From Ferroplasma acidarmanus Fer1 (GTDB lineage Archaea > Thermoplasmatota > Thermoplasmata > Thermoplasmatales > Thermoplasmataceae), in NCBI RefSeq assembly GCF_000152265.2, contig NC_021592.1:186001-250000 (forward strand): a stretch of DNA of 64,000 nucleotides. Reading direction: 5' to 3'. The notes below the pieces were generated by a model that saw only the letters and a program-made list of their open reading frames with translations, made no database searches and was not told where the DNA came from. Both the position numbers and the translations under genes were made by a program. Of the stretch, positions 14,591-18,522 are shown one piece after another. Positions within the stretch are counted from its first letter, which is position 1, and each line of letters begins with the position of its first letter.

Positions 14591-15529
14591 TCACTGATTA
14601 AATAACCGTTCAAAATTGTCTAAATCTCCATAGGATTCCAGAGTAACCCATTCAAAATTTTTTAAATCGATTTCAGTATCTACTATAAGCCTAAAGTATT
14701 CTTTTGCCATGAATTCTGGAACGATAAAATTTAATAATAACTTATCTTCACTTTCATACATAAATGTAAAATTTGATGTTATATTATTCTTTATGACGTT
14801 TGATGCAAACAGCACCAATATACTTTCGTCTATACTGGTTTCATATATGTGGTCAGTGTCTGATATAACTTTAATGCCTTCAACCTCACCCAGATTACTA
14901 TCAGAATAAAGGATAATCCTGAACTTCCCACCTTTGGTGATGTTGTCTACGTACTGAATTACTGTATTAGTGCCTTTCAATACTTTGATTATCTGGTACT
15001 GCGAGAATTCAGACATAGGAAGGCTTATGGTGATACTTTTAAGTGGAATCCCCATATTCTTCATAAAATCATAAAAGCCCATGGATGGCTTAAAGGTTAG
15101 TTTTTCAATGTTTACCTGCATATAGTTATACTTGCTCAATAAATTAGAAAAATCTGTCTCAGAGTTTGTATGCATAAAACCTTGTAATTTCAATTTGCCA
15201 GATTCAATACCAGCATAACTGATTACCAGCCCGGTTATGCTATCAAGGTCTCCTAAAAATCCTGATAAGTAAGGATCTTGAATTTTTTCACTGTAAAAAT
15301 AATAACGCGCCTTCTCTTCTATATCAACCAGTTGAAAGAACGGTTTTAAGGCTGTAATATCATCTGATTTCGGGATAAAAAGATTAAAAAGGAAATCATG
15401 GCCATCCCTAATAAGGCTGCCCGCACCGTTATACCCGGTTGCACGGAACAATGCTATTTGCCGGGAGTTAAAATTTATAGAAATATCAAAATATTTTGAA
15501 AGCTTTTGATCAAAATTAACCGGTTTCAT
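14591..15529 (-). CDS. Unrecognised 312-aa protein downstream of KaiC-like/GT2 genes
   Basis: I do not recognise this protein. It is soluble-looking, without signal peptide or membrane helix, mixed alpha/beta, with acidic C-terminal 60 residues. Two halves (about 1-150 and 160-312) may each be a small sensory-like alpha/beta domain, but no motif supports that firmly. A minus-strand TATA box (ttttatatatt, near 15556) sits about 28 nt before the ATG, so it has its own leaderless promoter, although it follows the GT2 gene by 117 nt in the same direction. The neighbourhood suggests a role with the polysaccharide synthase, by position only. Confidence 0.7.
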   Translation of the reverse strand: MKPVNFDQKLSKYFDISINFNSRQIALFRATGYNGAGSLIRDGHDFLFNLFIPKSDDITALKPFFQLVDIEEKARYYFYSEKIQDPYLSGFLGDLDSITGLVISYAGIESGKLKLQGFMHTNSETDFSNLLSKYNYMQVNIEKLTFKPSMGFYDFMKNMGIPLKSITISLPMSEFSQYQIIKVLKGTNTVIQYVDNITKGGKFRIILYSDSNLGEVEGIKVISDTDHIYETSIDESILVLFASNVIKNNITSNFTFMYESEDKLLLNFIVPEFMAKEYFRLIVDTEIDLKNFEWVTLESYGDLDNFERLFNQ

Positions 15530-15646: not shown

Positions 15647-17209
15647 CTACATAGAATTTTTGAAGGCAGGATCGTCCATTGATGATGCACGTGGGGTTTT
15701 ATTTAACCAGAATACCGGCATGAGAAGTGTGAACTGAAAAAACGCCCAGAACGCAGTAATATATGAAAAGGTGTTGTGCTGTAAAATGAGATAAATTGCA
15801 GCAAGAGGCAGGAGGATTAGAATTGTGAACTGTGGCCAGAAACGGTACAGAGGAATGTTTCCGCCTGTTCTGGCTGTTGTAAATGGTTTGGATTTTTTCA
15901 GTAACACACTGATTGAAGTAGAAATGCTCAGAGGGAATATCAGGAGATTTGCGGCCATATTATAGAAGACAAACCTTAATGGTGCCTTTTTAGATACCTG
16001 GGAAAGGGTAAATGTTGTCATGAGAAGTATGGTATATGGCAACCAGGCAAGAAGGTAAAGAAGACTGTTTATTGTCAGAACCCGTATTCCAACAATTTCA
16101 AGTATCGGAGAAAGGAGGAAAATTAGATAAAACCAGCCGAAGATATACCATGTTGATGTTGCAAACCAGTCTAATTTCTGTTTCGGCGAAAATTTTCTGC
16201 TTAAAAGGATTTTTTTGACAATTTTTGGCATTAAAGACAGCGAACCATACATCCATCTCCATTGCTGATTAATGTACCCCTGCATCGTTACCGGAGCCCG
16301 CCCAAACACTAACTTTTTATTGTAATATACACCGGTCCATCCATTTATTGCCATGTTAACAGATGTGGCTATATCTTCAACTATGTTATTCTCATCAAAA
16401 TAACCTACTGACTTCAACGCATCTAGATTATACACTACATTTGTGCCACAGGAGAATAATGTGCCTGCTACACTTTTACCTTCCGTGAGTATGTCATAAA
16501 ATATGAATTGCTGGGCCTGTGCTATCTCTGCTAGGATGCTTGAATCAATATTTGAGTATACCTGTGGAACCTGGATAAACCCTATTTTTGGATCCTTTGC
16601 CAGTACAGCTGTAGTCTCCCGTAGAAAATCAGGAGCCGGCGTCTGGTCTATATCAATTACTGCAACATATGGCACTTCCAGTGTTTTAAGGACATTATTC
16701 AATGCACCGGCCTTGTATCCATTTCTATTTTCACGGTGTATGTATTTCATCCCCAGTTTCCGGCATAAATCTATTATGGGAGCAGAATCGCCACGTGTTG
16801 AATCGTCAAGGACATATATATCAGAGTCTTCTCCCGCGTTGGAATAAATGGCTACCAGATTAGTAATTACCATTTCCTCTTCTTCATTGAAAATAGGTAC
16901 AAGGACAGCTACTTTGCCACGAAGCCCAGGTACATAAGAATCATGTATTGTATCTGTATAGTCAGTAACACTACGGTGGAAGGATAGAAAGTATGTTATA
17001 CTTTGAATCCCAAAAAACACGCTTGCAATCCAGAACCACGCGGTGAATATATAATCAAAAGTAGTGCCATTCTTTAAAACCAATGCCGAATATAAAGCTG
17101 AAGCAATACCGATGATTATGAAAACTATAGAGAGTATACTCATTATATTTACAAAAATAACAGTTCGTCTGCCCAGATTATCACCTTGTGCTTCTAAATA
17201 GGCTGTCAT
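15647..17209 (-). CDS. Processive family-2 glycosyltransferase, cellulose-synthase-like
   Basis: Starting at the ATG at 17209, 520 residues: two N-terminal membrane helices, a cytoplasmic GT2 domain, then about five to six C-terminal helices. Catalytic signature is complete: D-D at 135-136, D-I-D at 186-188, V-E-D (in place of T-E-D) at 277-279 and Q-Q-W-R-W at 315-319. This is the D,D,D,Q-x-x-R-W set of processive synthases that polymerise and export a beta-linked glycan. A TTG 11 codons earlier would enlarge the overlap with the KaiC-like gene from 29 to 62 nt; no Shine-Dalgarno supports either. The overlap implies one operon. The polymer made is unknown. Confidence 0.88.
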   Translation of the reverse strand: MTAYLEAQGDNLGRRTVIFVNIMSILSIVFIIIGIASALYSALVLKNGTTFDYIFTAWFWIASVFFGIQSITYFLSFHRSVTDYTDTIHDSYVPGLRGKVAVLVPIFNEEEEMVITNLVAIYSNAGEDSDIYVLDDSTRGDSAPIIDLCRKLGMKYIHRENRNGYKAGALNNVLKTLEVPYVAVIDIDQTPAPDFLRETTAVLAKDPKIGFIQVPQVYSNIDSSILAEIAQAQQFIFYDILTEGKSVAGTLFSCGTNVVYNLDALKSVGYFDENNIVEDIATSVNMAINGWTGVYYNKKLVFGRAPVTMQGYINQQWRWMYGSLSLMPKIVKKILLSRKFSPKQKLDWFATSTWYIFGWFYLIFLLSPILEIVGIRVLTINSLLYLLAWLPYTILLMTTFTLSQVSKKAPLRFVFYNMAANLLIFPLSISTSISVLLKKSKPFTTARTGGNIPLYRFWPQFTILILLPLAAIYLILQHNTFSYITAFWAFFQFTLLMPVFWLNKTPRASSMDDPAFKNSM

Positions 17210-18323
17210 CTGAAGTGGGATTTTCTGGTGAGTTGCCTTCAATAGCTTCCTGATTTGATTTTGTTGCTTCCGGTTCTGGCATTTTAATATTGCTCAAAGG
17301 CACTATGCCGTCCGCAGTAATTTTAAAGTCAAATGGATTTGGATCGAAGGCAGTGCCCCTCATTTTTATTATGCTTCCGGTTCTGGTACTTATATCATTC
17401 TGCGGTCTATATTCAAGTTTTATAATGCCTGTGGTGTAATATTCTTCAATGCCAAAAATGCTTAAATTGCTATTCCTCAAACCACTTGTAATTAATATTG
17501 TGACTCCTTTGATCGCCATGCTATTTAAGAGGAGGTTAACAAAATCATCATCAGGTATAATAAGGAGCGTGATCGGGTCTATAACAACACGTTTAATATC
17601 TTTGGAAATAATAATTTTCTTTAGTTCTGTGACCAGTTTTGTGATAAATTTTCTGGAATCTGCTTTTCCCTGGGATATATCAGATTTCATTGACCGTATC
17701 TGGTCGGAAATCTCCATTACCTCTATTTTTCTATCTTTGTATGCCTCTGCAAATCCGATATTCATTGTACGTATATTATCAATAAATTGGTCAGGGAAAG
17801 TATCGGTAAGTATCATCAAACCCTTTTCACCGATACTGGCACCGTATGAGAGAAAGGTACTTGAGAGTGTTGTTTTACCCACACCGGGTTTGCCAGATAT
17901 CATATACACATACCCGGGCCTGAGCCCTCCGGATAATTTCGCATCGAGGATAGGAATTCCAAATCTTGCACGGAAAGCATCCGGTGTGGCGATTTCTCTT
18001 GGGTCTGATATTATAATACCGTAAATGTTGCACATTTTTTTTACGTACTCGCCAAGTTCAATTTCACTTATTAAAATTTTTCTTGCAATGCCTGCATCTG
18101 TAGCCTGGGAATTAAAAACCATGATATCATTCGTTGTGATATCTGAATTTGCAAGCTTTACGGCGATTTTATCTTCCCCTGAAGCAATTATATAATCAAA
18201 TTTATAACTTAATCCAGATGCACCCTGAACTGCCATTCCCCCAACTACCTTAACTTTGTGTATATCAAATTGAAATTTTTGCAAGGCAATTTGCGCCAGG
18301 ATATCATCATCCAGTTTTATCAA
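17181..18323 (-). CDS. KaiC/RecA-superfamily ATPase with extra N-terminal domain
   Basis: A 380-residue protein. Residues 1-115 are an alpha/beta domain I do not recognise. Residues 120-345 are a single KaiC-type RecA ATPase with Walker A G-K-P-G-V-G-K-T-T at 144-152 and Walker B R-V-V-I-D-P at 245-250. A hydrophilic Ser/Asn/Glu-rich tail ends it. Single-domain archaeal KaiC homologues often regulate motility, signalling or biofilm; none has a fixed function. The start is TTG at 18323, with a TATA box about 28 nt upstream and an operator-like palindrome between them. It overlaps the GT2 synthase, suggesting ATP-dependent control of glycan production. Confidence 0.85.
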   Translation of the reverse strand: MIKLDDDILAQIALQKFQFDIHKVKVVGGMAVQGASGLSYKFDYIIASGEDKIAVKLANSDITTNDIMVFNSQATDAGIARKILISEIELGEYVKKMCNIYGIIISDPREIATPDAFRARFGIPILDAKLSGGLRPGYVYMISGKPGVGKTTLSSTFLSYGASIGEKGLMILTDTFPDQFIDNIRTMNIGFAEAYKDRKIEVMEISDQIRSMKSDISQGKADSRKFITKLVTELKKIIISKDIKRVVIDPITLLIIPDDDFVNLLLNSMAIKGVTILITSGLRNSNLSIFGIEEYYTTGIIKLEYRPQNDISTRTGSIIKMRGTAFDPNPFDFKITADGIVPLSNIKMPEPEATKSNQEAIEGNSPENPTSDDSLFRSTR

Positions 18324-18345
18324 TAGGTGTCCTATTTCAAATAGG
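18322..18345 (-). promoter_or_regulatory. Overlapping palindromes at the KaiC-like/GT2 promoter
   Basis: Three alternating half-sites occur in 24 bp: AATAGG, CCTATT and AAATAGG. The first pair makes AATAGG-TGT-CCTATT (18322-18336). The second makes CCTATTT-C-AAATAGG (18331-18345). Both are perfect. They fill the gap between the minus-strand TATA box (near 18347-18356) and the TTG start, covering the predicted transcription start. That is the classic position for an archaeal repressor. Confidence 0.65.
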
Positions 18346-18522
18346 CATATAAATTTTTTTAAAAAACATAGATAAATATCATTAAATAACCCTGTATTAT
18401 CAAAGAAAATCTCTTATAAATATTTTAGATTCATAAAGTTTATAAACCAGGTAATCCATTCGTCTCGAAATTTCGATATTGTTTCTATCGAATAAAATTT
18501 TTAATATAAAACTATATTAACT

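Follow-up and report, generated by a model that had tools for sequence, protein, structure and literature searches.

The window, a stretch of 64,000 nucleotides that runs from base 186001 to base 250000 of a genome closed at 1.935 Mb, carries on its minus strand a KaiC-like gene, a cellulose-synthase-like GT2 gene and a Ta1207-family gene. We searched the same-species strain G108 and eight other genomes of the same genus within a total of 77 genomes of the family, the nearest sister species being G008. The features of the locus are:

14591-15529, minus strand: Ta1207-family gene on the 3′ side of GT2, a recurrent neighbour of the pair (Pfam PF19020, E 3e-30; fold match to PDB 5m86)
15647-17143, minus strand: putative BcsA-like GT2 glycan synthase, 498 aa from the ATG at 17143 (not from 17242)
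17181-18323, minus strand: KaiC-like gene, 380 aa, TTG start
17301-17963, minus strand: KaiC domain, residues 121-341 (Pfam PF06745, PDB profile match and fold match)
17799-17804, minus strand: D174-T175, where KaiC has its catalytic glutamate pair (alignment)
17871-17894, minus strand: Walker A, GKPGVGKT, residues 144-151 (motif reading)
17988-18323, minus strand: N-terminal domain, about residues 1-112, a likely degenerate Mrr-like PD-(D/E)XK fold (hhalign, predicted elements and weak Pfam matches)
18322-18345, no strand assigned: overlapping palindromes in the spacer between TATA box and start, not conserved and probably due to chance
18347-18375, minus strand: conserved 29-bp block of the promoter that contains the TATA box (TTATCTATGTTTTTTAAAAAAATTTATAT) and occurs at one genomic site

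At the 5′ end of the KaiC open reading frame no ATG fits the frame, and TTG (18321-18323 in the window) stands in the same alignment column in the KaiC genes of all 10 aligned species and strains (the window gene and its relatives L036-L041 and L064-L066), Acidiplasma aeolicum included; TTG is a rare start codon, yet all ten keep it. In the closer relatives among these the TATA box precedes the TTG by 29-30 nt. Given the conserved column, this spacing and the lack of an in-frame ATG, the KaiC message is likely to be leaderless, or nearly so, and to start at the TTG.

Between the TATA box and the start lie the half-sites CCTATT-TGA-AATAGG-ACA-CCTATT (18345-18322, minus strand), the last of which runs into the TTG, much as the preliminary description had reported. 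Tight transcriptional repression had been read from them, in which a repressor bound at the overlapping palindromes would silence the KaiC-GT2 transcription unit. Such an operator would fit the exact triple of half-sites within the core promoter, an expectation of 0.23 occurrences per window for the pattern with up to three mismatches, and the 5-bp arms that remain in the same-species strain. The site is nevertheless altered within the species, where strain G108 has one base changed (AATAGG to TATAGG), more altered in the sister species and absent in farther relatives. The exact palindrome occurs once in 1.94 Mb, and near-matches with at most one mismatch are not enriched genome-wide (6 versus 16 for the reversed control). 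Furthermore, chance produces such triples when their sequence is left free: when three alternating 6-bp arms of any sequence with gaps of 0-8 were counted, 25 shuffles of the window gave a mean of 1.6 and a maximum of 4 against 5 in the real window, the promoter triple being the one of these five with equal gaps. We have set the operator aside on these grounds and consider it highly improbable; the palindromes probably arose by chance. If any regulatory site exists here, the 29-bp block would be the better candidate, as the closer relatives retain it and a search of the genome that allows three mismatches still finds a single copy.

The KaiC assignment itself is firm. The match to PF06745 covers the whole KaiC domain (E 1.2e-39; 136.6 bits against a cut-off of 26.6), a PDB profile search of the protein matches KaiC, and the AlphaFold2 model (mean pLDDT 80.6), searched whole with Foldseek, matches PH0284 and KaiC C1, the matches listed being to the KaiC domain alone. 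Together with the open reading frame and the BcsA-like match of the adjacent gene product, this bears out the description of a KaiC homologue with an extra N-terminal domain next to a cellulose-synthase-like GT2. Neither the lysine nor the threonine of Walker A varies across 30 relatives, Walker B reads VVIDPIT, and the KMRG motif, which in KaiC is situated at the subunit interface, is mostly kept in the family. Alignment shows that the catalytic glutamate pair that follows Walker A in active clock KaiC is absent from the window protein, D174-T175 taking its place, and that D174 is invariant among the relatives. Of the nucleotide or redox control proposed at the outset, the former is plausible in view of the intact Walker A, whereas the latter is unsupported by a protein with a single cysteine, C108, and we reject it.

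Pfam matches nothing within residues 1-115 of the window protein, and no PDB profile matched the N-terminal domain either. Among 25 members of the family, Pfam scans matched DUF1829 weakly in 11 (best E 0.002) and Mrr_cat weakly in one (E 0.06). A profile of the 25 members aligned by hhalign with six Mrr-type nuclease domains at a probability of 70 (E 4e-5, 104 columns), two unrelated comparisons that served as controls having probabilities of 0.1-0.2, and the predicted order of secondary-structure elements is compatible with the PD-(D/E)XK core. Nearly every member has alanine for the ExK glutamate (A54 in the window protein), and D43 is mostly kept. By its profile alignment and the predicted order of elements, the domain is likely to be a catalytically dead nuclease-type fold, one that aligns with Mrr-type PD-(D/E)XK nucleases over those columns but, with alanine in place of the ExK glutamate, is presumably incapable of cleavage. 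A nuclease-type domain joined to a RecA-type ATPase could instead place the protein in DNA transactions or defence, with GT2 as a passenger. The likeness to Mrr and a single weak PADLOC match (mad8, E 4e-4, to the P-loop) lend this some weight, but the catalytic glutamate is missing, no defence genes were found adjoining the KaiC gene in the window region, and the GT2 partner has been retained through the duplication and divergence described below, so that we think it improbable. PADLOC gave no match for GT2 or Ta1207, and a defence system was rejected as a candidate.

Of the solved structures, BcsA matches GT2 best (PDB profile search, E 4e-29). The D,D,D,QxxRW motifs expected of it are present as D114, D164/D166, E256-D257 and Q293-W297 (QQWRW) and vary little or not at all among 15 copies; the N-terminus has one hydrophobic segment, the C-terminal end several. 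Pfam found no PilZ domain, and the score against the CelA equivalog TIGR03030 is 153.6 bits, below the cut-off of 699.1. GT2 thus has the D, DxD, ED and QxxRW motifs of BcsA and CelA and differs from them in its length of 498 aa and its lack of PilZ; by its motifs it would be a BcsA-like processive-type glycan synthase. The overlap with the KaiC gene that had been described does not stand. In strain G108 and in the sister species G008 an in-frame TAA comes after both upstream GT2 starts (TTG 17242 and ATG 17209), and the ATG common to the relatives is that at 17143, 38 nt past the KaiC stop. GT2 therefore most likely starts at 17143, clear of the KaiC gene.

The comparison with relatives, chosen beforehand as the refutation test, divided the preliminary description: the palindrome is mutated or absent, and the pair is conserved, adjacent and duplicated. 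Adjacent KaiC-GT2 pairs of this main type number 17 among the 77 family genomes; 14 genomes have both genes, one has KaiC only and one GT2 only, for a hypergeometric co-occurrence value of 3e-13 that is overstated because the genomes are related. The two exceptions lie on short contigs, GT2 without KaiC on one of 5.7 kb (G001), and KaiC without GT2 on one of 4.4 kb, where unrelated sequence and Ta1207 come after it (G003). Two lineages of the genus carry the pair in duplicate, and the window genome has a second main-type pair at 1.838 Mb, in common with G004. A group-1 type glycosyltransferase gene precedes this second pair (L047, 6899-8008), which fits a glycan locus. Distances among the KaiC proteins correlate with those among the GT2 proteins (0.84; 0 of 2000 permutations), a value uncorrected for the species tree. 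A pair that is conserved, nearly always adjacent and duplicated supports a functional link between this type of KaiC protein and GT2.

A second, diverged type of pair occurs in the window genome (96-99 kb), in G108, in G026 and in another Thermoplasmata family, with KaiC proteins 22-24% identical to the main type placed ahead of BcsA-like GT2 genes. These proteins have an added cysteine-rich, zinc-ribbon-like N-terminus and then the same two domains as the main type, with which they align by hhalign at a probability of 99.6 over 296 columns. Walker A is lost in the copies of the Ferroplasma family and the pairing with GT2 is still kept; in the other family of the class (G187 and G201) the cysteine-rich N-terminus, the N-terminal domain and KaiC directly precede GT2, and the Walker lysine is kept. 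In the window genome the second-type pair looks broken (L130, 4337-7327, or G000:C1:96337-99326), in that one TAG interrupts KaiC and GT2 is disrupted in its 5′ part; in G108, and likewise in G026, both genes are intact. Since the pairing outlives loss of the ATP site, the comparison speaks for a structural or regulatory partner rather than for an enzyme whose one tie to GT2 is the operon. A protein of 209-215 aa directly precedes a related GT2 in another Thermoplasmata family (in G171 and G215; L161, 2864-3490, and L162, 2933-3577, minus strand). By eye it resembled KaiC, but it was rejected as KaiC-like (hhalign probability 0.5); it has no Pfam family, and it may be another type of GT2 partner.

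Ta1207-family genes (PF19020) are recurrent neighbours of the KaiC family with or without GT2 (L062-L079 and L090). The predicted model of the Ta1207 protein (pLDDT 87.9) has PDB 5m86, the solved Ta1207, as its sole fold match. Several genomes have the order Ta1207-KaiC-GT2-Ta1207, and in the I-plasma clade Ta1207 and KaiC occur together without GT2; the link between Ta1207 and KaiC may be older than that between KaiC and GT2. Micrarchaeota bins also have the same two-domain KaiC protein without GT2 (L080, 5893-6975; L084, 5866-6981), perhaps through exchange with Thermoplasmata hosts or a binning error, and in these DPANN bins a GARS-type ATP-grasp gene adjoins the KaiC gene. In the open-access literature we found no paper on Ta1207, nor on KaiC paired with such a GT2. 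The copies without GT2 in the I-plasma clade and the Micrarchaeota count against GT2 as the sole context of the KaiC protein, and the linkage to Ta1207 in the former would suit a regulator of the signalling or transcriptional kind whose gene shares a transcript with GT2 but which makes no contact with it and controls expression or other partners, perhaps of the Ta1207 family. Archaeal KaiC-like ATPases have indeed been proposed as signalling hubs, to judge by the title under which PMC6393860 cites Makarova 2017. We regard this as rather unlikely, as Pfam and NCBIfam scans recognised no DNA-binding domain in the KaiC protein, although the dead-nuclease-like domain could still bind nucleic acid, and as the adjacency to GT2, present independently in two types of pair, implicates GT2 itself.

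We propose that the KaiC-family protein is a cytosolic regulator or scaffold and the dedicated partner of the membrane glycan synthase GT2, a reading to which we give a probability of about one half. It builds on the adjacency and co-inheritance of the two genes, the two recurring pair types, the motifs and the KaiC fold, from which we infer physical contact, ATP dependence, the direction of control and the identity of the glycan. The KaiC domain, with its Walker A and KMRG motifs, would most likely bind ATP and self-assemble. As the catalytic glutamates are replaced, the protein would be no motor but a switch that works by binding the nucleotide or turning it over slowly, and would thereby turn the synthase on or off or hold it in place; the dead nuclease-like domain would provide a docking or input module.

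To our knowledge, little has been established about how exopolysaccharide synthesis is switched in archaea. The hosts of this pair are wall-less acidophiles of mine-drainage and bioleaching biofilms. Glycoconjugates are present in Ferroplasma biofilms (PMC4408177). GT2 lacks the c-di-GMP input that bacterial cellulose synthase has in PilZ, and the conserved KaiC partner is a candidate for the switch. More tentatively, and with some doubt on our part, the pair could be a Thermoplasmata-wide module in which a glycan polymerase resembling cellulose synthase carries a dead-nuclease KaiC as its ATP-gated ring or scaffold, a c-di-GMP-free control of exopolysaccharide parallel to BcsE in which the Walker-less versions would be pure scaffolds.

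Among known systems, clock KaiC and the single-domain archaeal KaiC PH0284 share with the window protein the KaiC domain, its fold and its oligomer-type motifs; unlike cyanobacterial clock KaiC, the window protein has one KaiC domain, Asp-Thr for the glutamate pair and an added nuclease-like domain. ArlH (FlaH) binds ATP, does not hydrolyse it and serves a membrane motor (PMC8978795). It resembles the window protein in its single KaiC/RecA domain with Walker A kept, and service to a membrane machine is a feature of ArlH that we extend to the window protein by analogy; the window protein differs in its extra N-terminal domain and in having GT2 rather than ArlI/ArlJ as partner, and scores 36.6 bits against the ArlH model, below the cut-off of 215. 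BcsE, which regulates cellulose secretion of the E. coli type, contains a Walker-degenerate RecA-like domain (PMC7439463) and so recalls the loss of Walker A in the second pair type, but the KaiC protein lacks the GGDEF-like c-di-GMP module, GT2 lacks PilZ, and Pfam and NCBIfam scans gave no match to the BcsE family. ArlH and BcsE are accordingly offered as analogies of working and not as family membership. If our proposal is correct, the KaiC protein of this pair would join ArlH as a second protein of KaiC type that partners a membrane machine.
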